Positions 10,001 through 59,327 of a stretch of DNA of 64,000 bases are shown piece after piece (position 1 is the stretch's first letter; each line of letters opens with the position of its first letter). The translations under genes and the position numbers were made by a program. Source of the DNA: Branchiostoma floridae (Eukaryota; Chordata; Leptocardii; Amphioxiformes; Branchiostomatidae); assembly GCF_000003815.2 (NCBI RefSeq), contig NC_049981.1:25479875-25543874 (forward strand), read 5' to 3'. The notes beneath the pieces were generated by a model. That model saw only the letters and a list, made by a program, of their open reading frames with translations. It had not been told where the DNA came from and ran no database searches.

Positions 10001-13000
10001 ATGTCTGAAATTGTCTTAAAATCTAACTTCCGCTAGAGGAACACTTTTTTAAAGAAATGTACACAAATTGTTGTGCCTAGTCAATTAAGCGTTTAGTTGT
10101 ATTCGAAGTATATTCTATTTGTATGCGTAGTATACTGCTGTAGATCGACATGCGGTTTATCTGAAATGGAGAAATTCAGTTACCTACGTGTTTTAATATG
10201 ACAATAGATGTAGAAACGAACAAAGTAAAAAAAAGGTCGAGCATCTGTTGTAGTTTAAGAACGATAGCCAAGGACTCTCTTCCCGTCCTTCACATTGAGT
10301 AGTTATTTTATTTCCCCACATGAAACTGCGGGAATCCCCAGTGCTTTCAGGGTCCCACATTGGACCTATTTGACACTGTGTAACTTGGCAATGACTGGCC
10401 CGACATCGGCCCACTCAAACCTTGGTACTGTAGCATCGTGTTGACTGAGCGGACAAATCAACGTCAACATCAATGCACGTAAGGCAACATATGCCAGAAA
10501 AAGCGCGATGAAATGGAAATTATAGACCGTCCGTCAGTTGTGAATATGTAGAGTCGTTGTCAATGTGTTGGTTTATTCACCGGTTACTGTGGAGTAGTTC
10601 TTCCGTTTGTTATGGTGTCAGGGGGCCGCCTGCCCATAATCGCACAATCGCTCTCAACTCTTTGATCCCTACTAAGGAGTGCCCAAACATCTGCAGTAGT
10701 TTTGCTTCTCTGATGAACACCCTTCCTGTAGACAGGTGCCGAGTGGCCTAGGGTCATACAAGCCGCTACTTCCCGAGTTAATCTTGTCACTCTGCTCAAC
10801 CCTGATGATTTCTTCGCCACGGAAACTACGTGAAAAGTCTTCTCAGGTTTCCGTCCCTACTCAGCAGGATCCTTTTGGAAAACCGTCTTCAGTTGTTGTA
10901 GCGCGAGTGCTGACGCCATGGAAGGGATGCTGACTAGCCTGGAAACCAGACTGCTTCCAGGGCCTAGCTTCAGGCTCCAGACCAACAAAAATGAAGCCCC
11001 CAATGAAATGTTAGGCTCAGTCCACTTGAAGAAGACCCTGAATCAATCGCTCAGGGTCTAGCTCCGGCCGGGGGATGTTAGCACATGGCCTATGTAGGCC
11101 TTGGAAACAAGTTGGGATTTACTAATAGGCTAATTTTTACCCTACCCCAGTCGAAAATAGTTACCCATAGCTAGTAAGTTACCCACCTCGCAATGTGGAT
11201 ATGGATATGTTAAAATAAACATGACTTCTAGTGTACCCAAAGATGTCATGTTTGTCGCGAAGCGTCAAATTCTTTTTCTCCGAACATTTGTTCTGTCAAT
11301 ATAACTCGTATTGGTGATACAAAAAGAGGAAGTTTGGATGTTTTCGGTCTCCTGTGCGGTCTGAACCTCAGAACTCTGGCCGACACACGGTCCTGTCATG
11401 ACAAAAATTCCGGCTCGTTTTCTCAGCTTGCGGAAGTCAGTATTGCGGGTTCTTAGAAGAACAAAGACGGCGAGAGATACTTCCCACCTGATTGTTGTTG
11501 ATCCTTAGATTCAAAACAGAAGACGTCGTGTCCTTGGGGCGATGGGCGGTATTCTGGGTAAAGGCACATGTACACGCATCCAGAGCACGAGCCTCTTACA
11601 AGTTTGAAAGTCACACAGATCAATTGATCCTAGCTATAAAGTTTGAAAGGAAACGGACAAACCTGCTAACCAACCTAATGATCTAAATTCTGCAATCTAA
11701 TAAGGCTTTAATTCGTAAGGTCCGACCCATACTGAAAGGGCAAGTGAGTCTATTTTGCCGACGAAAAGGCTGAAGAATTAACCGATACTGACACCTATTT
11801 GGGGCGGCTGGGGATGGAGAATGTCGTGGCACAGACTTGTGGATGGATTATTCATAACCTTCGACTTAAATTTAATTTCCATTGAAAATCTTTGACACTG
11901 TCATCAACCTGTTACTTTTCCATGGTTTCTTTCTTGTACAACGCCGACAATCGGCACAAACACATGTCTGTTCGTGTCTGTATGTGCCCGACGTGTCTTT
12001 CAAATGTTCTCTACCCTTCTTTCTGTATATGTTTGTGTGTGTTCTTTCTATATTTGTCTCTTTCTCTCTCTGTCCGTATATATGTGTCTCTGTGTGTCTG
12101 TGAAGAGGGTGAAGTCTGCAGTCTTTGATTGTCTTGTTTGATATGTTTATATGGTATGACGCAGAGATTCGCACTCTCCTTGGTCCAGAAGCAACAAAAT
12201 GTCTTCCGGCTGCGTGTGAGGGTCAAGGGCACAGATAATGTTGTGTAAACCAGCGGTGTGTCTGAGACAGCTGTGGTTCGCCCATTAACCGTTATCTTCA
12301 TCTTCTTGTTTTGTTTTTTACTACCGTACAGGAAGACTGGGCAATGACGGCCAGATCATGTACCTGTTCAACTCGTCCTCCATCCCGCGGACAGAGACCG
12401 TCATCTCGGCGGAGATCCGGTTCTTCCTCCCGCGGGCCCGGCTGCGGCAGTACGCGCGCACACCAATCGAAGAGCCCGACTACTGGCAGGTGACGCTGTT
12501 GAGCATTCCCCCCGCCGGCGGAGGCGCGTCCGCGACTACCCAGACGAGAAACATCACCATGTTCAGTTACGGGTGGCAGGTGGAGGACGTAGGGCGGGCG
12601 ATAAACTTGTCCCGGGAGCACCAGAGCCTCCTGGGGTTTATCATCACTTACCGGGGAGGCAGCGGCGTCCAGCCAAGACTCAGACGCCCGCGGCACCCGT
12701 CCTACCCCTTCCTGGTCGTCTTCGCCAACGATTCCAACACCGACATCACGGAAGATGACGGCACCAACATCCCCATGTCCAACTCCCGCTCCGACGTCGC
12801 GCGGACGGACAACAGACGGAGAGCGGGAGCAGAGGTCGCTTCCCGAGGTCGTCGACCCCGCGCCATCTTCGATAACGAGATTCCTGAAGACGACGGGGAG
12901 GACACGGAGAGGTACGACAGACGGAGCATGATGAAGGCGCTCAAGCCAAGATCGAAGCAGCGCCGTAAAAAGAACCGCAGGCGCAACAGGGGCAGGAAAC

Positions 13001-16000
13001 GCAAGCTCATCCGCATTCCCGTCGGGAACAGCGGCGACAGGAGTACGGACGAGGAGGACGACACGCAGGAGACACCTGTAGTGTGTTCCCGGCGACCCAT
13101 GCGAGTGGACTTCGCCGACATCGGCTGGAGCGACTGGATCATTTCTCCCAAAGCGTTCGACGCCTACTACTGCGCCGGGACATGTGACTTCCCCATGTCG
13201 AAGGTATGTCGCAGTTTACATTACCGGTGATGTAGTCGGTATGGTGCGGCGGTCCTTATCTCCAAGCAGATGGAACGATGCAGCTCATTCTCAGTGTTTT
13301 GGTAACATCATTGAACATGTAGTGCGTCTATCTATCATTGTATCTAGGACGAAGCGAGTTGTTTTTTAAAGTGTATATAAAAAATGAGTAATAGATGTTG
13401 CAAAAGAGCCGTGAAATACTGAGAATGAGCTGAATCCTTACATCCACTTTACGGCCATTTTTGCTGACGTTTCTGTTTTATTTCCGTACCATACTGTCTC
13501 TTTCTTCTTATTTAACGACACAAAATCTCCGTATAGCATGCAATAGTATTGAAAGGATGAAGACCTTTGGTGCATGTTTGACCGCGTATTGGGCTCATCA
13601 CAAAACACATACATACGTCAGGGGTAGAAAGAAATTGGAATCGCCGATTCTAACGGCAGGATCCTATTCCGCAGAGTTGGCGATCAGGATGCTAGGAGTG
13701 TGTTTAGGATCTAAGAGTGGTCATCCATTTAGAAATACGGTACTAGTTTTCAAGTCAAACCATACTTACTTGAAGTGGCGTGAATGACTAGAAGGTGAAA
13801 TGTTATGACTGTTTTTGATGGAAACATCTTTTACAAACTTTAATCGGGATCTCGACGATATCAGGCTACCCCGACATATAGAAGCTAAACTATGCAACAT
13901 AGAGTGCAAATTCTGCAAATTCCCCCATGGTAGTTCCCGAAAAGGCATCTAGTTAATCTCGATAAGTTATCGAGGTTGAATGTTGAAAATGTGGCTGGCC
14001 AGTTCTTCTCCAATTTCTCCCCGTTGACGGGAGATGACTGGTAGTAATTTGTACAGCCCGAAGGCAGATAGTGGGAGTGAAACATTACACAGTGTAACTT
14101 GTGCTACAGCCGTGTACTCTGTCAGCTGCTCTCGGCTTCTGTCAAGATCAGGTCACACCGATTTAATTTCTCAGTTGTCAGATTCGCCGCTGCACATTTT
14201 TTTCTGATCGAAAAAAGAAAAAAAAAATCACACGCAGTCATGTACCATTCAGGAAATGGAAAAACACCGATAATGTCCAGATTTTGGCACCAACAGTTGA
14301 TTGCGGAGAGTCCTTTTTTTTACTAGTTGTTGTTATTTGTACCTCCTTGAAGGATGTTCACCTCCGATGGAGGTACTGTTTCTGGTTGTGCATATGTGTT
14401 CGCAACACAACACAATATCACTTTGGTAGATGTGTATGGATTCTGGTATGTGGGTAGTCATGGAGGTCCCGAAAAAGCATGTCAGGTTTGCCCTAAATTC
14501 CGGATTTTTATTCTTTATCAATGCATCAAGAGTTGCAAAAGTTTCAAATTGGCAAACAGATATCGGCGTTTGTTTGCTCTATAATAAAGCATAGTAATGC
14601 CATACTAGAAGCGAGTACTATATGTTACAAAAATAGTTAGAGCGCTGTGAATTAGCCTGAGTACCATCCGTATTCTACCGGGGCTCCTTACACTCGCTAC
14701 CCCTAAAAATTTTTTAGGGAAGTGAGTGTAAGGAGCCCCGGTAGAAATAGGATGGTACCCAGGCTACTGTGAATGAGCAGGGTCATTACATCTGCTCGGA
14801 GATCAGCTGGAGTGACACGTGATTGATGTGCGTGCGACCCCGGCATTGCTTACTAGTTTAGACAGGTCAAAGGTTACCATGGTGGACAAACATGTGATTC
14901 TGCCTTTCAACATTTCTGTCACTTCGCCTCAGCATCAGCCAACCGTAACCGTATATCGAAAACGTGAGAAACGTATTCTTCTGGCGGCTTACTAAATATC
15001 TTTGAATCTGACCAATTCTTTGTACCTAATCTTGCACCCAAGAGTAAATGGGTTCATCGCGATATCCTGTTAAAAAAATGTTAAAATCCTACAGTTTGTA
15101 ATATCTCAAATGTTAAAATCAATGTTTTTCAAGAAGTATCGTAGAGTGGAACTCATTGTCTCCGGGTACAGTTGCGTTGCCTTGCGTTAGATGTGCAAAG
15201 GTTAGGTGTGACAGGTCATTCACACCGCATGCCAGCAAAGTTGGTGCTTTACCCTAGTTTACACCAAAGGTCGGTTATACCCACTGCATGCACAATGCAT
15301 GACTGCAGATACAGGAGCTTGCGGATACAGAAGGGCTACAATTTAAAGATATAGGGGGTTCGTTAGGCATGTTCCTTGCTTGGTGATGTAAATATTATAA
15401 GCTCCAAGCAGATATTGTGAGGCTAAATTCGTTACTTTCTCCAAGCCAAGTCGTTTGACAAAGAAAAGGAGAGCTGGATGTCACAAGAGTGTACTGGATG
15501 GCCTATCCCTATACCGAAAGTAGAACTTATGGAGAACAATGTCTACAGCCGCTGTGCATCAGTAACGTTACTGATGATTGATTGGTTGATTGAATATCTG
15601 ACCCTGTAATTTGTATATGACAGAGAGGAAGTTTTGAAAGCCGAGTTTTGGCGCCATGGTAACAGCCACCCGACCACACCGCCGTGTCACATCCCCATCC
15701 CCTGTATGTATAGTGAGACAACAAACCTCTCGCGGTGTTGGAGCTCTTCCATCCTCGGTGCTACACCTGCGTCCACAAGGAACATGTATTTACCTTGGCC
15801 CGTCCGCAGGTCGCCATCCCGAACAGATGTCGCCATTCCTTTCCTTTCAAAACATCACGCAGGATAACGGAAGCCTCAACTCTAAACGTAATCCCGATTG
15901 CGTCAAAAAGGTCACGAAGGGTCAACAACATGGAGGATTAGTAGTATATATATTAACCCTCCACCTGCTAAGTTCTATTGTAACCAATGCGAAATTTACC

Positions 16001-32398: not shown

Positions 32399-35300
32399 TC
32401 AGGAGGTCAACTGGCAAATGGGGTTGTCATAAACCATTTGTAGGTTGATCTTGTGCCCAACTAACTCCCGGATGTTATCAATGCCGTACTTGATCATAGT
32501 GGGTCTGAGGGAGAGACAAATAACACAACAGGTTAGAAGGAAATATGAATAGTTGTTTTGCATATTGCTACAGTGCAGTTTTTTTGCATTCTGCCAGAGG
32601 ATGCTTATGAAGGGGTGAAGTCTTACCCTGAGTGCCATCCTCCGCAGTGACCGCTGGATCAATACTTTTGCTCGCTAACCACCATGCATATAGTAAGCAA
32701 AAGAATTGAGCTAGTGGTAACTATGGAGGATGGTACTCAGGGTAGTGAAGTCTGCCACCAATGATTGACTTGTTCTGGTAGCATTGGAAGGGTTGACATT
32801 AAAATCTGTTGACATTTATTCAACTTTGAAGCATAATCCTTTAGATATAGCATAATTCTTTTTCTGTAGCTGAAAGTGTAATACAGCTCTGTTGCAGCTC
32901 GCATATTTATCGGGTCTTCCTACACTTCTCGGTCATAAACCACATTAACACAGTCCTGTCTGATTTTACATAGTTGAGCAACTCAAGACCAACCCTCTTG
33001 TCTGAAAAACACCCCTGAATCACCAACCATTTTCCCTCAGTCCCATGATTGGTTGTTGAGACCAGGTTTGACTGTACAAGCTTAGTAACCTGACGTACCT
33101 CTCCAGAGACAACCCCCAGGCGATAACAGAGATGTCCTCAGGTAACCCCATGGGCAGCAGCATCTCAGGTCGGAACACTCCGGAGTTGCCGATCTCCACC
33201 CACTTCTGCAGACCTGTAACATGTGGTCATACACAACATATCATTAAAATGTCAGGGCTAACCCTAACCCTAATCCTAACCATAACCCTTACCCTAACCC
33301 CTACCCTTACCCTTACCCTAACCCCAACCTTTACCCACTTCTGCAGACCTGTTAAGACCTGTGGTCATAGACATTATGTCATTAAATGTCAGCTGAGGGC
33401 CAAACCTATCTTTAACCCTAACCCTAACCCTAACCCTAACCCTAACCCTAACCCTAACCCTAACCCTAACCCTAACCCTAACCTTTTCCCACTGACCCAA
33501 TCATTAAGAAACATAGCGAACACTGGTCTATGGTGACCATTTCCTCAGAGAGTGGCAACTACAGAAACACTTGGTTGAACGGGAGAAAACTGTACAATCA
33601 TAACTAGTAAGAGAAGAATAAATGGCTGTCATGATAAGACAATGGTGGAATAACTGACCTTCATGATAGCTGAACACCTCCATGCTGGGTTCTGTGTAGG
33701 GATTGTAGGCAGGCTTGAAACGCAGCTTCTCAATTCCTGTAGAAGAAATGACACAGTGGATTCACATGATGCTGTATCTTCAAAATATTTTGCAAAGGAC
33801 AATCAGTGAACAAGTAAAGAGCGCAAATCCACATGATATTGGCGTTTCATGCTGAAAAGCAGTTAACTTATATCTGTTGACAAATCAGATGTGGGTCCAG
33901 TGTGATGACTCTACTGTACTATCATTTGTCGGTACAAATAAGTTAGAATATCTGGATTTGCGGGAGCTCCAGATTCTTGTCATTTCTTCTTCGGCCTTCC
34001 CCGAGGTACCGAGACTTCACACTCTGTTGTTGTTGACAGTTCCTGTTGACAGATGCTGCTGATCGGGATCTCTCACAACAGAATGACTGATTCTACCAGA
34101 TCTAACATATATATATATGATTCATACATAATGAGCTAATGAATTAAAACAATATGCACATCTACAGCTTTGGCCCCATGTTGCAGGACTAATTTATCTT
34201 TATACCACAGACTTAAAATCCTTTTTGAGCATTTACACACTATACTGTAAATACGTTCATGGGGATTAAGGACTTAATCAACCAACACAATATTACACTT
34301 TCTTTAAGGACCTACCTAATTTCTTAAAGAAGGCATGTAGCACTCCCATCAGGTCGCCCAAGGTGAGGTTGTAATCTGCCACGACCCCCTCGATCTGGTT
34401 AAACTCTGCCAGGTGGGTGGCGTCCAGGGTCTCGTTACGGAACACGCGATCGATGGAGAACAGTTTCACAGGTTTGAACCCGTCCTGTACAGGAGAACAA
34501 CATATGTAACCAGACGTTTTGCTGCAGTACCATGGAAAGCTAGTACAAGGCCCATAATCGACACCTGTTCCGCCATACCCTCCATTTGTCATTGTATATA
34601 TGGAGAATCCTAATAAATAAATAGATAAATCGAACTTGCCTTTTGTTTTGCCGACACACACACACGCATAATAAATGTCATACAGATCCATCCACAACTT
34701 CTCGAGTTATGATGTCCACAAGTATAAACAGGATGGCTTAACAAACTGTGAAGTACACGGGTTAAAAGTAGGTATGGACTGGGATGTTGAGGTTACCTTC
34801 TGTTGCTGGGCGAGCTGGTAGAGCATACGAGCGCTGACGGCCGTCGTGTGCGTCCGCAGGACATTTTTCTGTGCCTCCTCACGTTTCCACTCGTATTGGT
34901 ACCTTTAACAGATCGAAACACATCCAAACAAGATTCAACACCTGCAAGTTCTGCTTCATACCAATGAAAGCTGCCAGGAGGGTCACAAATGCCTGTCTTG
35001 GGGCTTGAAAAGCCTACGCACTCATACCAAACTTTGCCACATTATCCTGCATACAACACACCTTTGTCTGCATACAACCAGGCAGAACCAGTTGGCAGAC
35101 CTCAACCCCTCTCTCCTTTTATGGTCTTACATGTTTCTCTCATGAGAACTAATCCACAAATGTCCCAGTTTTAGAGTTCCAACTTGAACTTTTCCTAAAG
35201 AAATTTAAACTTATATACTTACCCTTGAGATCCAAATCCTCCTTTTGAGTGAACTGTCTTCACCTTTTCCATGTACTCTTCTGGGAATCCCTGAGCATAC

Positions 35301-38300: not shown

Positions 38301-39246
38301 CGTAAATCGTTGTCAGCCTTCCCGACTCTAGCTTAAAGCATTGCCAGGACCCCCCATGCAGACCCTCAATGAAGTTACAGCATACCATCAGCTGTTTTTG
38401 AAGGACGCCCTCTGGTGGAATGGCCCGGTACAGCACTGCCTCGTGGCTCCCATTTTCTGCCACCTGCCGTCCCTCTCCTGTCAGCTCCCACCACTTCGAC
38501 ACGCGCTGTTCCGCCGTGATGACCTGAAGTGGGAGGTTCAAAAGAAAACCAAAATTCTGTGGATCCAGCAGGTGGAGGTTTGAACCCAGCATGGACACGC
38601 TTTATGACGGGTTGTAGCAGCGAACAGACTGATCGCCATTCAAAGGGATTCTTAAGCCTTCAGTACCATGTATGGGAGGGCCTTAGGTATCATACCTCTA
38701 CATGTAAATTGACCCAACCATAGCCGGGGCGACTAGAAACGAAAAACTTATTAACTTGTAATATAATATACAGGATGTTTTTGTTTCTAGTCGGGGGGGA
38801 GCATATTTGGCTAGAGCCTTTGTGCTTGCTTGCCATATGTAAATTATCTAGAAGTACAAGGCTTATCACATGATCAAGTCAATGACCGAAATAACATACA
38901 GACTGAACTGAAGCATGAAGCTTTTTCGATAAGTTAATAGAATTGAAGTTTCGTCAAATGATAGACACCGTGAAATCCCTGACAAAGTTTGTGATTTCTG
39001 TCTGTGTATGCCTTGGTGTTGGGATGTCCACATCACTATAATTTATCATCGCCCCCCTCCCCACTAGCACTAACATATGCGAAACGCACGAAATATTCGT
39101 ACATCACCCAGAGACTGGAGACTCTTGACAGCGCCAACGATCAGCTGGTGGTCTTTGCCCAGTTGCCGGGCGATATCCTTGGTATCCAGCCCATCATTGT
39201 CCTGTAGTAGCTGGAGAATGGTCGCATCCACGCCTTCTGCTGCCAT
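32399..39246 (-). CDS. FARSA: phenylalanine--tRNA ligase alpha subunit, cytosolic
   Basis: Catalytic subunit of the cytosolic (alpha-beta)2 enzyme that charges tRNA-Phe. Exons in transcript order: 39246-39103, 38523-38386, 38114-38055, 37751-37650, 37229-37111, 36941-36849, 36342-36214, 35581-35466, 35307-35223, 34902-34797, 34484-34316, 33736-33659, 33213-33099 and 32504-32399. All are GT..AG and in phase, giving 519 residues (human about 508). The N-terminal winged-helix region (residues 1-95) contains [19 protein letters not shown]. The class II core has [20 protein letters not shown] and ARDEHDTFF (about 275-298), motif 2 [19 protein letters not shown] (about 376-395) and motif 3 [20 protein letters not shown] (about 478-497). 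The end is [19 protein letters not shown], as in animals. The 60-nt third exon ([20 protein letters not shown]) has no counterpart in human FARSA. Confidence 0.97.
32615..32775 (+). repeat. GGTGAAGTCTGC repeat interrupted by a foldback element
   Basis: The dispersed repeat core reads GGGGTGAAGTCT at 32612-32623 and resumes GTGAAGTCTGCCACCAATGA at 32745. The 121-bp foldback element lies between the two halves. It sits in the 3' flank-proximal intron of FARSA. Confidence 0.6.
32624..32744. mobile_element. 121-bp foldback element with 9-bp target duplication
   Basis: Left end TACCCTGAGTGCCATCC, right end GGATGGTACTCAGGGTA. The interior arms also pair (ACTTTTGCTCGCTAA against AGTAAGCAAAAG). The flanks are GTGAAGTCT at 32615-32623 and GTGAAGTCT at 32745-32753, a perfect 9-bp duplication. 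Same family as 14653-14766. It lies in the last intron of FARSA and has no coding capacity. Confidence 0.88.
33198..33392. repeat. tandem duplication of the FARSA exon 13 acceptor region
   Basis: Copy A (33198-33255) is the genuine exon 13 edge: ACCCACTTCTGCAGACCTGT then intron ending GTCAG. Copy B (33333-33392) repeats the same string, including GTGGTCATA, ATGTCATTAAA and GTCAG, at an offset of 135 bp. On the FARSA strand copy B therefore presents a second acceptor, CTTAACAG/GTCTGCAGAAG, upstream of the real one. A degenerate telomeric array lies between the copies and a perfect one follows copy B. Confidence 0.85.
33258..33331. repeat. degenerate interstitial telomeric repeat (CCCTAA)n
   Basis: About twelve units of CCCTAA with variants (CCTTAC, CATAAC, CCCCTA). 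Situated in the FARSA intron between the two copies of the exon edge. On the transcript strand the sequence is TTAGGG-type. Confidence 0.9.
33413..33484. repeat. perfect interstitial telomeric repeat (CCCTAA)n
   Basis: Twelve uninterrupted units of the animal telomere repeat, TTAGGG on the FARSA strand. It produces the artificial Asn-Pro and Arg-Val open frames. It follows copy B of the duplicated acceptor within 20 bp. Confidence 0.96.
36015..36105. repeat. minisatellite, about 21-bp unit
   Basis: Units like GATTGCTGATTGTACTAG recur four to five times with small changes (CACCGATTGTACTAGAAA, GATTGCTGACTGTACTAGAA). Located in an intron of FARSA. Confidence 0.75.
38117..38182. repeat. 66-nt hairpin abutting the acceptor of FARSA exon 3
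   Basis: GCAAACAACATCATTCCCAT plus GACAACA at 38117-38143 pairs with the complementary arm at 38156-38182 (25 of 27 positions), with a 12-nt loop. On the FARSA strand the hairpin ends exactly at TTTGC and the next two bases are the AG of the splice acceptor for the 60-nt exon. Confidence 0.85.
38724..38799. repeat. 76-bp foldback in FARSA intron 1
   Basis: GACTAGAAACGAAAAAC at 38731-38747 pairs with GTTTTTGTTTCTAGTC at 38777-38792, with G-rich flanks on both arms. The loop is AT-rich. It is probably a miniature inverted-repeat element; no target duplication was read. Confidence 0.6.
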
Positions 39247-39575: not shown

Positions 39576-41842
39576 CATCATCATCATCGTTCGGCTGCAG
39601 CGCAGGCGACTGCGAGCCTTCTAAAGTTCCGCCTATCAGCAGCGAGCTGGCGAAGCTGCCTGGGGGTGATCTGGCCATGATAGTCTCCCATTAGTCGCTG
39701 GACGTACTGTAGATAAGTAGTAGGTTGGCGTCCCCGTCTACGTCTGCCATGAGGAGGGACGTAAAGTGCATACAGACTGACATGCTCATCCTCAGGCATA
39801 CGCAGAACGTGTCCGAGAAAGTTCAGCTGTCTCAGGCGCACTAGTTGTATCAGCGGCTTTGTTTTGGTCATATCATAGACTGTGCTGTTAGGTACTCTAT
39901 CGATCCTTTTGATGCTCAACATGATACGATAGCATGAGGTGGCGAAGGAGTTGATCTTGTTCTCCATGTCCTATCCTGTGAGATCACCCACGACTCACAC
40001 CCATAGGTAAGCACAGTTACACATGAAGTCATAAAGAGCTTTACTTTGGTTGCTATTGGAAGGAGATCGCTCCTCCAAAGGTGTTCCAGAAGACGGCCCA
40101 AGCTAGAGCTCTGCGTTTCTTGAGGTCTGCGCTACTGGAAGCCATCATAGAGCCAAGATACTTAAAGTCTTGAACCTGTGAGATGGTTTCTCCATACACT
40201 TGCAGTGGCTGACCCGGGTCTGCATTGTAGCACATGTACTCAGTCTTACGCACACTTACAACAAGATCGAAGTCCGCAGCAGCTTTGGCAGTTTCTGTCA
40301 GTTGTGCCTGCGCTCTTGCTCTCGTGGACTCTAAGAGAGCAATGTCGTCCGCGAGATCTAAGTCGTTTATCTGTTTTGCTAAGTTACGACTAGATACCCT
40401 AGGGTGAGTCACTATCCCTGAGTTGCTGTCTGAAGTAGCCCTCCTCAGGAGGTAATCAATAAGGATGATGAATAGAAATGGCGTCAAGACATCGCCCTGC
40501 AGGACCCCAGTAGACACATTGAAGCTCTGCGACACATGACCGTCAACATAGACAACACTTTTTGAGTTTTTGTACAAGACGCTTATGGCATTGACTACAT
40601 CCTCCGGGATGCCGTAGTGGCGTAACACGGCAAACATCATTTCCCTGTCAATTGAATCAAATGCCTTTTGGAAGTCTATATACGTCACCCATAGCGGAAG
40701 TTGTTGGTTTTTAAAGCCTTCAATAATCCGTCTAAGTATGTGGATTTGTTGTGCGCAGCTGCGACCTTCCCTGAAACCAGCCTGGTTCCTCCTCAGGATG
40801 GGGTCTATGTGGCTGCGTATCCTGTTCAGGAGGATTTTGTTGTAAACCTTTGCAGCAATAGACATAAGTGAGATTCCTCTGTAGTTTGTCATTTGAGTTA
40901 AGTCACCTTTCTTTGGCAATGGGATAATGATGTTGGTAGTCCACTGTTCAGGAGGTACAAGGGTAGAGTATACTTCAACGCAGAAGTTGTGCAAGACTTT
41001 TGTTATTGTGGAACCGCCACCCTGGAGAGCTTCCACTGTGATCCCATCATCCATGCCGGCTGCCTTGTTTCGTTTGAGTTGTTTTATGGCTAGCTGCGTT
41101 TCCTCGAAGGAGGGTGGATCTGTGAGAATGGGGAGGTCTTCTTCAGCAGGTAGAGGCAGGTTCTTTGCAGAGCTGATGGTGTTGTTAAGTAGGGAGCAGA
41201 AGTATTCCCTCCATTCAGAGAGAAGCTCTGTATCACTGGAAGGAGGGGTACCATCCCTTTTCTTCACCTTGGCTCTCACCCTCTGGTGCTTTCCTGAAAG
41301 GTCATGGATGATCTTCCAGGTGGTGGAGTACTCTCTTTTCTCATCAGCTGTCACCAACTCTTCAATCTGACTGTTGAGAGCTCTGGTTTTATCACTTTTG
41401 TATGACTCATTTAGTGCACTGTTAAGTTCCCTCCATGTTGCTTTTGACCTTCTTGTGTGGTTCACAAGGAATCTTCTTTTAGCTTCATCCCTGTCTGCTT
41501 TCAGCTTAATGGTTTCTGCTGACACCCAGTTTGGCATGCCACACGGTTTCTTTTTCCCCACCACTTTTGTTGCTGCTTCCTTGACTGACGATTCAAATAC
41601 TTTATACCTGTTCGTAATGGATTCGCCACTGTCGGGAGGCTGAATGGCGCTGAACCTGTTTGACAGTTCAATCTCGAATTGCTCCCTGGTGGATGGGTTC
41701 TGAAGTGCACCCCAATTGAATTTCATTCGTTTGCAGCGTTTTCCCCTAGATGTTCTCAGGCTTATTGACAGTGCAATGCTTAGAATCCTATGGTCTGAAT
41801 CGAGTTCGACAGTGTTGTACGCACGATCGACAGTTTTGAAGC
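39576..41842 (-). mobile_element. 5'-truncated, frameshifted LINE retrotransposon
   Basis: Non-LTR retrotransposon copy on the minus strand. It begins inside the endonuclease domain: the frame before 41726 reads YNTVELDSDHRIL, the SDH motif. The reverse transcriptase follows, with LPKKGDLTQMTNYRGISLMS, AGFREGRSCAQQIHILRRII, YIDFQKAFDSIDR, STGVLQGDVLTPFLF and the catalytic LADD (residues DLDLADDIALL). The usual residue before ADD is Phe or Tyr, so Leu is unusual. Frameshifts near 40085 and 39967 break the 3' part (SCVTVLTYGCESWVISQD, then RQLNFLGHVLRMPEDEHV). The element ends in a short GAT repeat. It is flanked by AATGTCAGT at 39567-39575 and 41843-41851, a 9-bp target duplication. The copy is dead; the clade is not assigned. 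Confidence 0.9.
40053..41726 (-). pseudogene. reverse transcriptase fragment of the LINE
   Basis: The longest surviving frame of the LINE, 557 codons. It covers the linker after the endonuclease and the reverse transcriptase palm and fingers, through the QVQDFKYLGSMM motif. It stops at a frameshift rather than at the natural end. The upstream codons 41727-41846 remain open, so the ATG at 41726 is not a real start. Confidence 0.9.
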
Positions 41843-41851
41843 AATGTCAGT

Positions 41852-43008: not shown

Positions 43009-45262
43009 GCTCGATGAGAAGAATCAAAATACGCCTTTTGGCCGTGTTCGTTCTGGTCACCACGACTGCCTTCCTATGGACGATAGGTGGGAACATACCA
43101 CAAGAAAGGTAACGTCAAACAAAACAGCTCTTATACTGATGCAAACAACGTTAAGGCCATATGTAGTGTATTATAATCTGAAAACTAGCACCCATGGCTA
43201 CAGATTTTACTCAAGGTTCTAAAATGAATTCATTATCTTGCTCTGTCGGTGTAACGGTATGCATAGTAATGCTAGCCTACTTTGCCCTGTATCATACAAA
43301 ATCCCAAGTGCTGCTATGGAAACCGATAAGGCCTGCGAATTTAACATTAAAGATTATCAGTACATATGTATGTATGCCATAATTTCATTGAAAATTACAA
43401 AAAATCATTGTCCTTCAGATTTTCTCCGAAGAACGTCTCCAGAACTACCAATTCCTTACAAACAATCTTAAGTCGTGATGTTGTTCACCTTGCCATGGCT
43501 TCCACAAATCTGCCATTGGATGGGCGTTTCAACACAAGCAGAGGTGAACAGAACATAGGCATACCACCAACACAGATCGCACCCAGGCCAACGGAATTTG
43601 GTATCCTGACGCTAGAGAAAGTAAGGTCAGTGTGTCGGGAGTTTTCCATTAACTTAATATTGTCAAGCTATCGATGAGGTGAAGATCGAAAGCCTCAGTA
43701 TATCTACTATGTACAGATACATATCTTTTTACCTAGTTAGTTGTGTGTTAAGCTTTCGTCTTTCCATTACATTGATTAATCATAATGTTATATCCACATA
43801 TAAATGATAATAGATATAACTTAAGACGTGCCCTAGATTAGGACGAAGCCCTTACTGATCTTACCGTTAAGTAGTTTCCTGTCACGGTAGATAATCTCTT
43901 TAATAGTGTCTCTGTTTGTTTGTTTTTATCCCATATGCTGTACCCTGTACTGTTATGCAATAAAATTCATAAAGGGAACAAAATGCACTCCAACAAAGGC
44001 CCATGGTGACAACTTTCATCGCCTATATGTAACGTTAAACCATTTCGTCTGCCGTTTCGTCACGTTTAACATGTGGGTACATGCTCTTACAATACGTACC
44101 CTGTGTCCACAGAAAAGCGGCCATGAGGCACATTGATTTACGGAAGCACGTTGCTATCTTCTCCAATTACGAAGATGATATTGCGAGATGCGGGGCAAGT
44201 ACAAACCAACATAAAACCTCCACACATCCATCCGAATGCTACGGAACGCCGGCTATCACACGTAACTACAGCACATGCGCACTGGTTGGGAACGGAGGGA
44301 TATTACTGAACAGTAGCTGCGGTGAAGCGGTCGACTCACACGACTTCGTGATCCGGTTAAACCTTCCGCCTGTCCAGTCATTTGAAAGGGACGTTGGAAG
44401 TAGAACTGATCTTGTTTCCATAAACAATAAGGTCTTGATAGACATTGGGTCGCTGCTCATTTCGTCCACTGGCAGGACAGAAGTCTTGAAAATGTTGAAT
44501 CAGGTACAAAACAGTATCTTACTATACGCCAAGGGTTTTGAAAAACATGGAAAAGGTGCATACAATATTACAACCTTGGAAGCCATTCAATCTGTGGATA
44601 ACTTCATCGAAAGCAATGGATTGCAAATAAGGACGGCCTATGGGCTTTCCGATGACGTGCAGGCAGCTTCGAAAAGGTAAAGATGAAAAACACATTGACA
44701 CATTAGAAACGTAATCAGCATTTAAACTTTCTGCGTGTTGTTAAATTGACTTGAAATAACTACTTTAGTTGAAATAACTACTCGAGCCATCAAATAAAAA
44801 AAGTCTTGCATGTAAGTGATGTAACCATAGGTAAGGAAAGAAAGCCTTCCTGTATGTCTCAGGTAATGACATATCATCTTTTACAAATGCCCGTGCTGAG
44901 AATACTTTGGATTCATGTCTTCAGTAGTGTTATCACTAACGTTTTTCAGGTCACGTATACGAGTGTCACTCACTTATTTCGTACATTTTATCATTGATAA
45001 CAGGGTCATCTCCCGTCTACGAGAAACCGTACGGCATCCCACCACCGGCTTTCTCAATTACTTCCTCTCCCTCGCCTTCTGTGACCACGTGACTGTGTAC
45101 GGATTCTGGCCTTTCGCCATGACTCCTGACCACCGGCCCCTCCCCTACCATTACTTTGACAACGAGACATTTCCGATTAATCACAATATCATTGACGAGC
45201 AGGTGTTCTTAAGGGACTTGAACGAGACAGGTTGTTTGACACTTGTGAGAGATTGTTTGTGA
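42996..45262 (+). CDS. alpha-2,8-sialyltransferase (ST8Sia-like)
   Basis: Golgi enzyme transferring sialic acid from CMP-sialic acid to sialylated glycans. Exons 42996-43108, 43419-43625, 44113-44676 and 45004-45262 give 380 residues. Exon 2 must use the donor GTAAG/GTCAGT at 43626; the GTAAGG donor six bases earlier would shift the frame. Type II topology: a short basic tail, then a membrane segment (about 12-30, LLAVFVLVTTTAFLW), a stem region and a catalytic domain. Sialylmotif L starts at Cys162 (CALVGNGGILLNSSCGEAVD, then HDFVIRLNLPPV and DVGSRTDLVSIN). Motif S is at 306-332 (HPTTGFLNYFLSLAFCDHVT, YGFWPF). Motif III is YHYFDN (343) and motif VS is HNIIDE (His355, Glu360). YGFWPF and the spacing fit GT29 ST8Sia enzymes. 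The exact paralogue cannot be named from sequence alone. Confidence 0.93.
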
Positions 45263-55300: not shown

Positions 55301-58300
55301 GCAAATGTAGCAAATTCAGCTAAGCTCAGTGAATCTTTCTATTAACCAGAAAGGTTTTTGAGGGCGACGCACCCACCACATCACGGGGCCTGTTCACTAT
55401 GTCCGGTCCGCAAGCCGTCGCAAGGGAGGTCCGGGAAATTTTGAAATCTGGACCCTCGCAAACGCCATCTCCTGCACTTTCTGGGGCAAATTTTGCTGAT
55501 ATACTTACTAAGATTGAATAAAATGTCTATCAGTGAAAAATGCAAATCAGTCATGCCTTTGAAAAAAAAATTGTGGACATGAAAAAGTGGACCTTCATGC
55601 GTGAAAAAGTGGACCTTTTGAGCTTGTGGGGGGGTTCTTCCGAACCCCCCGAACCCCCCCTGGCTACGGGCATGCATTACACATACAATGTACGTCACAA
55701 GTTGGCCCCAACTGTTGACATACTGTCGCTAACACACAGTGGGAAGTAAATGGGCGTGACTCAACACACACACAGAGGACTAGGGCAAGTGGTCTACAGT
55801 TGTATTTAACCCAATTAGGAATGATTTGACTAAACATAAGTGATTTTTAGGGTTCTGTTTTGTAAATACTGTTATGTTGCAGTATAGCAACTCGGCCAAC
55901 TATAAATTACACTTTGGAAAAATCTGGTGAATAACAAAATACCCTACCGTTGTTCCTGCCCGTACCTACTATGTTTAATACACTGTACAAGTTTTAGTAG
56001 CTTTGGGTTAGTTTTAATTGCCAGAAGAATGCCGAATTTCACCTGCCATTTGTCTACAACGACTTGTTGATCTGGCTACAAAGGTATAATAGGAACTAAA
56101 AATTTACCTGTAATGCAAGTTTTCTGAGGGACAAGTCCCAGACAACAGACTTCCAAAACAGATTCAGAAACCAAAATATACCTTACTATGAAGCCTTGAA
56201 GGTTTGTTGTTGTTGCTGTCATTACTCAATGTATACTTTTCAAACTGAACTTTTGGTTTTAATATATTTAATGCAGTACTCCAGGTTTATTACATAGAAT
56301 TGTACACACAATAAATGTCTACAACTATATTGGGCACTGATTCTGAATCTGAGCAAGTTACTATAGGTCCAAGCCACCCAAGAAGACCAACTCAACTACT
56401 GAAGAATTTCTAACAAACACCTTGCTGTCTCATCAAACGTGTTCTCTGAAAGGAGGGCGATGGCGAAACACTCTCTCCATCCATCAAACTCAAAGTCTAC
56501 GTGTACAACAAAGCCAATCACAACCAATGAAATGAATGTCAACCTGCTACCAACTTTCAGTCAAAGATGTCTGACAAAGACTGTCCAGAGCTGTGAATTT
56601 TTTTCTCAATTATTCAAGGGTGTCTACATACTACATTTGTACCTTTGAGAGTCTAAACATCAAGATAAACAGGTGCATTAGTTGGGTACCAAATGACACC
56701 CTTGTGGTAAATGTGTCAAATGACAAGGTAAAGTGTACTAATAGTAATACTATGTTTAATATAGTGGTGCTCCAGTGCCAGTGGAGTAATTAGAGGCTAA
56801 TAAAGAAGAAGAAGATGTTGAAAACTGAAAAGTCTCTCTCATGAAAAAAAAGGTGGTATATGCTCTGTAAGGGACTGTACGATATTTATCAGGGGGGGAG
56901 GGCTGGTGCGTTAGGGGGGGAGGGCCATGTTAATTTTTTTTGAGGTGGGGGGAGGGCCATGTTAATTTTTTTTAGATAGGGGGGAGGGCCATGTTAATTT
57001 TTTTGAAAGAATTGTTTATACTCTTTTTGTTTTGATATCTTCAACATGGCCCTAAAACTGATAAAATAAGCCTTCTGAATAGCCTAAAATGCAAGAGCTT
57101 CCGGGGGGCTTTGCCCCCCTAGGCCCCCCAAAGTGGCGCTGCCCTGGACCAGTGTTCCCGCCAGGCATACGTCATTCCGTCTACAGACTTATTTTTTTCT
57201 GGAAAGACGCACTCGGCTCGGCTGAGTTTCCCAAAATATTTAAGTTACAAAAGCGGTGCACGGTAAATACGTGAAGAATCCAAAACTACACACTTTATTT
57301 TTTATTTAAAACATTTCTTTTGTTTCAAAAAGACAAAATTTGCGGCAGAAAAAGGGGCCGCAATATTGTTGTCAAGTGTCGATCGAGTCGGCTGTGCACT
57401 GGCATTGGCGTCCGTAGCACATGCCGCGGCACGCCCCCCTCCCCAGACGGACTGTCGATCGCAGCGCCCAGCACGTCTTTTCTGGCTACTCCTTCAAGAC
57501 TACACCGGCACTGATCACTGCCAAAGATGCAGCAGATCGCCCTCCTTCGTATAATGTATAACGTTCTTGGTCTACTCAAATCTGTGTAAAAAGAAATCCA
57601 GCGGTGAGCCAAAGATTTCACGCCGAAAACGGGGTTACCTGAGGTCGCACGAAACAAACGCACGCTCGTGGAAAATGACGTCGCGGCCTTGTAAAACCCG
57701 ACCGATTCGATAAATTTGAATAAAATCATCGGGCAAAATAGAAAAGAAAACCACAAGGTGTGCTGGCGCCGTTTATTCTATCCTCTGGAAAAACTACTAG
57801 CATTTGATGCGGGAGGGCGTAACATCGATCGCACGAGGTTAGGCATTCTTTTAATATTCAATGCCGGAAAAAATTTAAATTGGCAGGATTTTTCCATGGG
57901 CTGACGAACTCACTGGCTAAAGCCCTGTTTGGAAGCATCAAAAACCCAAAATTTTCATATAGACATGACTGGACAAATAATACCCGGGCCAGATCACGGA
58001 CTGCTGATTCCCCGAGCTTATAGTTATAACGTATTTTTGGGGAGAGGGCGGACGTCGATTACTGAAAAACGGCAGTAAAAAAGGCAACCGGCATCCAATC
58101 TCAAGGGCATAATTTTCCTCTCAAGTTGCAGGAAATTCTGTTTTAGAGGGTTTGAAAATCCAAATTTTCCCGGGGGAGCATGCCCCCAGACCCCTGCCCC
58201 GACGCTGTGAAAAAATCCTGGCCAGAACACTGGCCGGCGCCCTTGTGCCCTGACGTCTATACATGTTATATTAAGATTATTTTATCGATTGTTTTTCTAC

Positions 58301-59327
58301 CTGTTTAATGATGCCTGTCGGGGGGAGGGTCATGTTGATTTTTTTTAGGTGGAGGGGGAGGGTCACGTTAAATTTTTTTGAGATGGGGGGGAGGGCCATC
58401 AAAAAATTTTTTGATCCGACTTCCAATGCACCAGCCCTCCCCCCCCGATAAATATCGTACGGTCCCTAAGTGATGTTAGTTGCGTTATTGTCATAAGAAA
58501 TGAAACAGTATAATGTCCAATAAATAAATTTTTGCCGCCACATCCAAATCACAAGTTGGCGAGTCATCACTAACAAGTCGTAACATTTGCCAGATGTATT
58601 TTTTTAACGTCTGATAAAATGGTTCTCTCATGGTAACAGGTTGCATGGTTGGTTAGGGTTGCGCTTGTCCTTTCAGTTGGGTATGTAAGCTGGCTGCCCT
58701 ATGAATGGAAATGAAGCTTCTATGAGCATTATTGTCAAACCTCTCTGTTTAAAAGAAACCAACAGGTGGTTCTCTCAGCTTACCTTCCCAATCCGTTGTC
58801 CCTTTGGGCTCCATGTTTTTCTGTGCCTGAAGCATAGTCCTAGCCTGAGTACCCAGGGAGTACAGCATCTGTGGTTCACAGAACTGCATCACACCCAGCA
58901 TGTAGTTAGCCTTGCTCCAGTAGCTGGCCTCTGCAAACCATGCCCAGGTATCGGCAATGTGTTGCCTGAGTTCTCTCCTGTTTAGAGCCCTGTCTCCACT
59001 CAGTGTGGAGGAGTCTCCGGGAAGACTTGGGTTTGTCCGGCACCTGGCATAGGTGTAGTCCTTGTACAGTAGCGGGCTGAGAAGGGAGACCACATACTCC
59101 ATGAGCTCCGCGCTGTGGAAGCGCCGCGGGAGTCCGAGTAGAAACCTCCGCTTGGAGTGATCTCCAGCCCGCAGGAACCATTCCCGGGTGAAGCTGATGG
59201 TGGCTCCCAGACGGCAGGCTTCGCAGTGGCCACATGTCGTGGCTGGCTGCCCAGAGGTACACCGAAGAGTCGGAGCTCGTCCCAAGTTGAACTCGACCAC
59301 TTCTGTAGTGTCTGGCGGGTGTTTCAT
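46345..59327 (-). CDS. FBXW10: F-box/WD40 repeat protein FBXW10
   Basis: Predicted substrate receptor of an SCF (SKP1-CUL1-F-box) ubiquitin ligase. Exons in transcript order: 59327-58784, 52545-52112, 51770-51532, 50554-50351, 49959-49838, 49663-49596, 49355-49275, 48818-48676, 48278-48114 and 47740-46345. All are GT..AG and in phase, giving 1131 residues (human 1052). The N-terminal region has CGHCEACRLG and FTREWFLRAGDHSKRRFLLG, diagnostic for FBXW10. The F-box is at about 269-307 (KYRDFISGLPVHLSKYILGF). Then come EERNVYCGAYNVMVL and at least six WD40 blades (about 420-690), such as GHRGTITCIDLFENRLVSGS and VTCLKFDQWHLVTGGKDG. The last exon adds about 440 residues of Ser/Thr/Arg-rich, probably disordered tail ending KTVKKTAYEIGE. 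Intron 1 (6.2 kb) is loaded with transposons. Confidence 0.95.
47758..47801 (-). repeat. dispersed repeat with core GTGAAGTTTGCC
   Basis: On the minus strand it reads GGGTAAGGGAGTGAAGTTTG then CCGTCTCTAATTGCC, matching 28340-28386. It begins 18 bp upstream of FBXW10 exon 10, so it provides part of the intron end. Confidence 0.6.
48037..48056. repeat. (CA)n microsatellite
   Basis: About nine CA units in an intron of FBXW10. A matching (TG)n/(TGCA) tract lies at 48563-48604. Confidence 0.85.
48295..48322 (-). repeat. dispersed repeat with core GTGAAGTTTGCC
   Basis: Minus strand GTGAAGTTTGCCATCTCTAA then TTGC, the same family as 47758 and 28340. It lies 17 bp upstream of FBXW10 exon 9. Confidence 0.55.
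48563..48604. repeat. (TG)n and TGCA-rich tract
   Basis: TGTG repeats passing into GCATGCATG units, intronic in FBXW10. Confidence 0.85.
50700..51180 (+). repeat. dispersed repeat split by a hAT-like element
   Basis: The outer sequence (CCCTACTGTAGTGGCCTGTG ... AGCTATAGAAATGGAGATGG) is related to 24490-24590. The 362-bp element at 50769-51130 interrupts it, so this repeat was there first. Confidence 0.55.
50769..51130. mobile_element. 362-bp hAT-type MITE with 8-bp target duplication
   Basis: Terminal inverted repeats are CAGGGCTCTAGCCAGC and GCTGGCTAGAGCCCTG, perfect over 16 bp. They are flanked by GGCCCAAG at 50761-50768 and GGCCCAAG at 51131-51138. A CAGGG end with an 8-bp duplication is the signature of hAT elements. 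Inside are further inverted motifs (TTTCCGTCAG, GTCAATTGAC). There is no transposase, so it is non-autonomous. Located in intron 3 of FBXW10. Confidence 0.92.
54115..54570. repeat. degenerate tandem repeat with CAATATTTCACCTGTAAAAG core
   Basis: Five diverged units begin near 54122, 54249, 54326, 54429 and 54517, each with ATATTTCACCTGTAAAAG-like sequence followed by AGTCATAAAAGAGTTTT. Unit length varies from about 80 to 130 bp. Confidence 0.65.
54767..55674. mobile_element. 0.9-kb inverted-repeat transposon with internal tandem units
   Basis: Ends are CATGCCCGTAGCCAGG (54767) and CCTGGCTACGGGCATG (to 55674), a perfect 16-bp inverted repeat, followed by G-rich GGGGGGTTC on both sides. CATTA occurs directly outside both ends (54762-54766 and 55675-55679), a likely 5-bp target duplication. 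Inside are four diverged direct repeats of about 170-185 bp with the core AAATCTGGACCCTCTGAAAC, near 54905, 55070, 55258 and 55445. No transposase frame was seen. Confidence 0.85.
56871..58466. mobile_element. 1.6-kb non-autonomous transposon with TAA target duplication
   Basis: Terminal inverted repeats are GGGACTGTACGATATTTATC (56871) and GATAAATATCGTACGGTCCC (to 58466), continuing into a GGGGGGAGGGCTGGTGC arm on each side. TAA flanks both ends (56868-56870, 58467-58469), as in PIF/Harbinger-like elements (TWA targets). Next to each end are three to four direct copies of GGGGGGAGGGCCATGTTAAT followed by a T-run. A second inverted pair inside (CAGTGTTCCCGCCAGG at 57150, CCTGGCCAGAACACTG at 58217-58232) suggests another element nested within. 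No transposase was found. Confidence 0.87.

Follow-up and report, generated by a model that had tools for sequence, protein, structure and literature searches.

Tandem duplications that span exon/intron boundaries, known as mirages, have been described in the amphioxus genes Adh3, BflGb6 and BflGb9 (both globins), TnC and PGBD5 (PMC3087553; PMC3902484). According to the passages of these two papers compared here, the repeat units of Adh3 measure 10-72 bp, those of the globins 150-160 and 157 bp, and those of PGBD5 60 and 108 bp; splice signals are kept in many of the copies, the BflGb6 copies are 81-100% alike, and splicing is reportedly left undisturbed. Mirages were discovered gene by gene, and their cause or mechanism is termed unclear in the passages compared (PMC3087553). 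The string "telomer" occurs once only in that paper, where it concerns gene order, and mirages joined to telomeric repeats were found in none of the titles and abstract beginnings of the amphioxus and intron-gain literature covered, a coverage from which subscription journals are largely absent.

A second kind of system is formed by the short interstitial telomeric sequences of mammals. Direct duplications accompanying telomeric insertions have been reported at 3 of 66 loci in the horse, with a deletion plus an addition at 2 more (PMC7215372); the corresponding figures are 6 of 130 in rodents and 4 of 25 in primates, and 31% of the human short interstitial telomeric sequences are reported to be intronic.

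Results

The FARSA gene and its surroundings

The window, that is, the whole stretch of 64,000 nucleotides analysed (C3:25479875-25543874), belongs to a Branchiostoma floridae assembly of 513 Mb in 431 contigs, which was also the assembly searched. Its minus strand carries a complete FARSA gene, the 13 coding exons of which lie between window positions 39246 and 32399. The translated pieces covered residues 8-500 of the 508 of human PheRS alpha, some of the short pieces being individually weak. The exon numbered 13 in the initial annotation is counted here as coding exon 12 of 13, and the telomeric arrays thus lie in intron 11 (Table 1).

Several other features were observed in the window. A long open frame encoding a reverse transcriptase domain (RVT_1, 4e-32; LINE-1 ORF2-like in PDB) lies directly upstream of FARSA exon 1 (40053-41846, minus strand), and FARSA intron 12 holds a hairpin (32624-32744) with arms of 54 nt, 81% complementary and spaced by 13 nt, which looks like a small inverted-repeat element. 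The plus strand carries a TGF-beta family ligand gene (12289-13227) and a glycosyltransferase 29 (sialyltransferase) gene (44039-44677). Two related short minisatellites with G-rich units of 32-33 bp are present at 56915-57004 and 58320-58414, their starts being about 1.4 kb apart.

Table 1. Positions of the FARSA intron 11 features within the window
Feature	Position	Strand	Remarks
FARSA coding exon 12 of 13	33099..33213	-	true acceptor CATGTTACAG/GTCTGCAG
FARSA coding exon 11	33659..33736	-	donor ATGAAG/GTCAGT
FARSA intron 11	33214..33658	-	penultimate coding intron; houses both CCCTAA arrays
Tandem unit 1	33199..33333	-	135 bp: exon 12 first 15 nt, intron 11 last 42 nt up to TGTCAG, degenerate array
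Tandem unit 2	33334..33487	-	154 bp: copies of the exon edge and of the intron end, then the perfect array; third CCCACT beyond, at 33488-33493
CCCTAA array 1, degenerate	33258..33329		12 copies, 83% matches; UUAGGG on transcript
CCCTAA array 2, perfect	33413..33483		11.8 copies, 100% matches; UUAGGG on transcript
14-nt pseudo-exon GTCTGCAGAAGTGG	33335..33348	-	between decoy acceptor and GTAAAG

The telomeric arrays lie inside a duplicated exon/intron boundary

Both telomeric arrays described in the initial annotation were recovered, array 2 as a perfect one and array 1 as a degenerate one with 8 mismatches in 72 bp against a perfect CCCTAA array. Array 2, with 71 perfect bp, lies some 25.5 Mb into a contig of 34.2 Mb and is thereby internal, as short interstitial telomeric sequences are. 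The duplication of the exon edge at an offset of 135 bp, also claimed there, proved real: positions 33189-33217 recur at 33324-33352, the offset becoming 138 past a 3-nt indel, and the flank match scored 67, compared with maxima of 26 among 2000 shuffles and 28 among 8470 other comparisons within the window. The copy reads CTTAACAG/GTCTGCAGAAGTGG/GTAAAG on the minus strand, an acceptor-like sequence followed at once by GTAAAG, just as had been noted.

In window order, unit 1 consists of CCCACT (33199), the exon edge, the intron end, TGTCAGGGC, array 1 and AACCTTTA, and unit 2 of CCCACT (33334), the exon edge, the intron end, TGTCAGCTGAGGGC, a degenerate start, array 2 and AACCTTTT; beyond unit 2 stand CCCACT (33488) and then unrelated intron. 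CCCACT is therefore found at every breakpoint, and no further site occurs within 33151-33520. This microhomology has one neighbouring mismatch, the A preceding the middle CCCACT agreeing with the exon side and not with the far side. Both arrays begin after TGTCAG, following the matched exon edge and intron end, and both end in AACCTTT-N-CCCACT. Since CCCTAA runs align by register alone, only 9 of the 10 non-telomeric bases are informative at the array ends.

The locus is a tandem repeat across an exon/intron boundary, in two units of 135 and 154 bp that each contain the edge of exon 12 and the end of the intron. We read it as a two-unit mirage in which an interstitial telomeric array is part of the repeat unit, with a probability of about 0.7. 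As the array sits within the duplicated unit, it probably precedes the duplication, and this position together with the CCCACT common to the breakpoints makes an intron with one array, followed by tandem duplication at CCCACT, the simplest history. For the same reason, the single repair event envisaged in the initial annotation, in which telomere capture and duplication coincided, is unsupported, and single-event capture with target duplication is not the preferred origin. One-step repair of this kind would have begun with a staggered break of both strands at the exon edge, whose filling-in copied some 60 bp, and would have placed captured telomeric repeats between the copies. The direct duplications published for the horse, rodent and primate insertions speak for it, as does another locus of this genome, L019, with its flank-array-flank architecture; in FARSA, however, arrays come after both copies, both starting past TGTCAG and ending in CCTTT-N-CCCACT, for which a single capture is insufficient, and we consider one-step repair improbable here.

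Between the flanks of the two units, 5 of 55 aligned sites are substituted (K2P 0.097) and indels occur as well, indicating that the duplication is not fresh. The same differences, the size of the entire structure (<300 bp) and the similar structures at further loci make an assembly artefact scarcely credible, even though the BflGb6 globin mirage has been termed, in the published passage, aberrantly assembled in an older draft. Array 2 is perfect, yet 6 of 14 bases mismatch at the degenerate edge adjoining it, which suggests that this array grew or was homogenised later. A DNA search of the genome, which skipped simple repeats and gave 113 matches, with 40 of 149 first-look candidates scored, showed no other match extending more than 15 bases past the two FARSA arrays and their spacer. 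A dispersed element bearing both flank and array was rejected as a source for FARSA within that scope, no second flank match having been found.

The two-unit mirage could have arisen as follows. A CCCTAA array would already have been present in the FARSA intron, and the segment from the CCCACT of exon 12 to the CCCACT past the array would have been duplicated through template switching or end joining at the 6-bp homology, possibly triggered by stalling of replication at the G-rich TTAGGG tract. Array 2 may afterwards have been lengthened or kept pure through slippage while array 1 decayed. Splicing would bypass the decoy acceptor, whose context may have been spoiled by the 3-nt difference and by a CACAG 10 nt upstream.

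The decoy acceptor and the pseudo-exon donor score weakly

Acceptors were scored with a small matrix built from the 11 other acceptors of FARSA. The result showed that the true acceptor of intron 11 scores 9.23 and ranks top of the 41 AGs in the intron, whereas the duplicated acceptor scores -4.62 and the CACAG 10 nt before it 5.65; with so small a matrix, in which the gene's own acceptors range from -1.6 to 13.3, these scores are a hint only. The decoy 3' splice site of the initial annotation thus exists as a duplicated acceptor but is a weak one. Likewise, the 14-nt pseudo-exon proposed there is present in the sequence, but its donor is weak, scoring 2.98 against 2.5 to 10.4 for the FARSA donors. 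If the decoy were used with retention, the frame would stay open to reading in phase for 135 nt but meet a TGA at 33229, and inclusion of the pseudo-exon would shift the frame. Because the decoy is weak and the published mirages reportedly leave splicing undisturbed, ordinary splicing of FARSA is expected, and the duplication probably does not disturb it.

Flank duplications recur at other telomere-like arrays

Four CCCTAA units matched at 1343 places in the genome and five at 950, giving 393 perfect runs of four units or more. The sample comprised 36 array loci, of which 16 (on C1, and on C2 as far as 18.0 Mb) lie behind the first 100 places listed and 20 behind 47 places matching a pattern that selects arrays ending in CCCTAA plus a non-C base; another 13 loci behind these 47 places, from C12 at 11.58 Mb to C344, were left out. 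Four loci from a search biased towards array-spacer-array arrangements (L033-L036) stand outside the 36; L035 was positive for flank duplication and L033, L034 and L036 were negative.

Non-telomeric direct repeats across the array were found at 18 of the 36 sampled loci. Ten of the 36 (L018, L027, L029, L041, L044, L047, L048, L049, L050 and L052, the last assigned by a 53-bp piece only) belong to one shared dispersed satellite of about 160-181 bp with short CCCTAA tracts, and for these ten a dispersed element bearing flank and array was accepted as the source; in L029, CCCTAA and TTAGGG tracts stand head to head within most satellite units. In 100 control windows, any direct repeat was present in 15 and a repeat across the centre in 5. 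Of the 26 non-satellite loci, 9 showed flank duplication across the array, compared with those 5 control windows in 100 (Fisher p 1.9e-4). In one of the nine, L055, the 33-bp copy stems from a dispersed repeat also present in the L019 flank; when this locus is set aside, the comparison is 8/26 with 5/100 (p 7.7e-4). Stricter thresholds gave 7/26 against 5/100 and 4/100 (p 0.0029 and 0.0014). L053, with a weaker duplication below threshold, was left out of the count, and the sample includes two related pairs, L022/L023 and L025/L051. Non-telomeric microsatellites had flank copies in 3 of 8 cases, all three within one L020 minisatellite, a control too small to tell whether the effect is peculiar to telomeric arrays.

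The arrays could also be ordinary hexanucleotide microsatellites, born and enlarged by slippage within an intronic minisatellite independently of telomeres or telomerase, a view compatible with the mirage reading. The 393 perfect runs across the genome are in its favour, as are the (TTGGGG)n and (GGGCTA)n variant arrays that adjoin TTAGGG arrays at L019, L037, L045 and L032. It is also favoured by L025 and L051, which have flanks 93% similar over 757 columns and arrays of 51 and 94 bp; this pair is a natural gauge of array-length change and indicates that such arrays do change length. Against it, the repeat unit is identical to the common animal telomere repeat, CCCTAA/TTAGGG, and the mammalian cases in print are insertions. 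We regard a microsatellite origin as a real possibility, but would not bet on it.

Exon edges are copied at six further loci

Inspection by eye of frames and splice signals showed that an exon edge is duplicated in 6 of the 9 positives. Donor edges are copied at L017, L020, L037 and L054 (best identities 43/51, 91/97, 78/82 and 80/98, respectively) and acceptor edges at L019 and L021 (59/76 and 92/93). The family of L021 is firm (Rh/ammonium transporter, PF00909, 2e-10); L054 is SDR-like (2.8e-5) and L020 ELYS-like (2.3e-4; PDB 0.004), both under the curated cut-off, L037 is weakly fibrinogen-like (0.034), and the family search gave no convincing family for L017 and L019. The pieces duplicated at L024, which holds 759 N in 1600, and at L031 carry no exon assignment. 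In L035, which we take to be a C-type-lectin gene, the copy ends some 12 nt before the donor is reached.

The copies at L017, L020, L037 and L054 extend across the junction of exon, donor and array, which makes the array look older than the duplication at these four loci too. L021 has three upstream copies in alternation with arrays, and the AG has been lost from one of them. L019 has one array between two flank copies and no outer array, a structure that fits capture between two copies. The local duplication pointed out in the initial annotation is borne out, and further genes in this genome show the same architecture.

UUAGGG-repeat RNA is reported to be recognised by hnRNP A1 (PMC7192615), and the sense strand is the one bearing TTAGGG both in FARSA and in 6 of the 7 other cases, L035 among them. 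The arrays might accordingly be imagined as splicing regulators that mask the decoy through hnRNP A1 binding or RNA quadruplexes. The decoy, however, is weak already, and 7 of 8 in the same orientation is not significant (p 0.07, or p 0.18 for 7/9 with the uncounted L053). Such a role appears highly unlikely, and selection as the cause of the sense-strand bias was rejected, 7/8 being too few.

Discussion

The FARSA structure is one instance of a recurring local duplication beside telomere-like repeats in this genome. By itself the single FARSA locus is a modest finding; the interest lies in the association across loci, which was seen in a small sample in which some exon calls were made by eye and the control does not separate telomeric from other repeats. 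The link to telomere-like arrays offers a candidate trigger for mirages and bears on the question, raised in the horse study, whether intronic telomeric repeats affect splicing (PMC7215372). Tentatively, and with more doubt than confidence, we suggest that interstitial telomeric arrays might be a main seed of exon-boundary mirages in this genome: intronic TTAGGG beside splice sites would cause slippage during replication or repair, so that the array is copied along with the adjacent exon edge and the splice signals of that edge. If this were true, telomere-like repeats would be a driver of splice-site turnover in a chordate and might even promote the gain of introns.

As far as the passages compared go, three known systems resemble FARSA in part. 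Intron gain by tandem duplication (potato RdRp, PMC4974935; the Rogers model cited in PMC3087553) likewise involves AG/GT signals duplicated within a gene; unlike in potato RdRp (PMC4974935), no new intron is evident in FARSA, the surrounding coding exons reading as human PheRS alpha. The mammalian short interstitial telomeric sequences share with FARSA the short internal TTAGGG arrays and, sometimes, a flank duplication, but they are one-step insertions recognised against empty orthologous sites, whereas the FARSA array belongs to a tandemly duplicated unit and is known from one assembly. Amphioxus mirages have in common with FARSA an exon/intron boundary in tandem duplication and similar unit sizes. 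They differ in that telomeric repeats are not mentioned in the passages compared, whereas the FARSA unit includes a CCCTAA array and is present in just two copies. The FARSA finding thus looks like a telomere-carrying variant of an apparently known amphioxus feature, the telomeric part having no counterpart in the literature covered.
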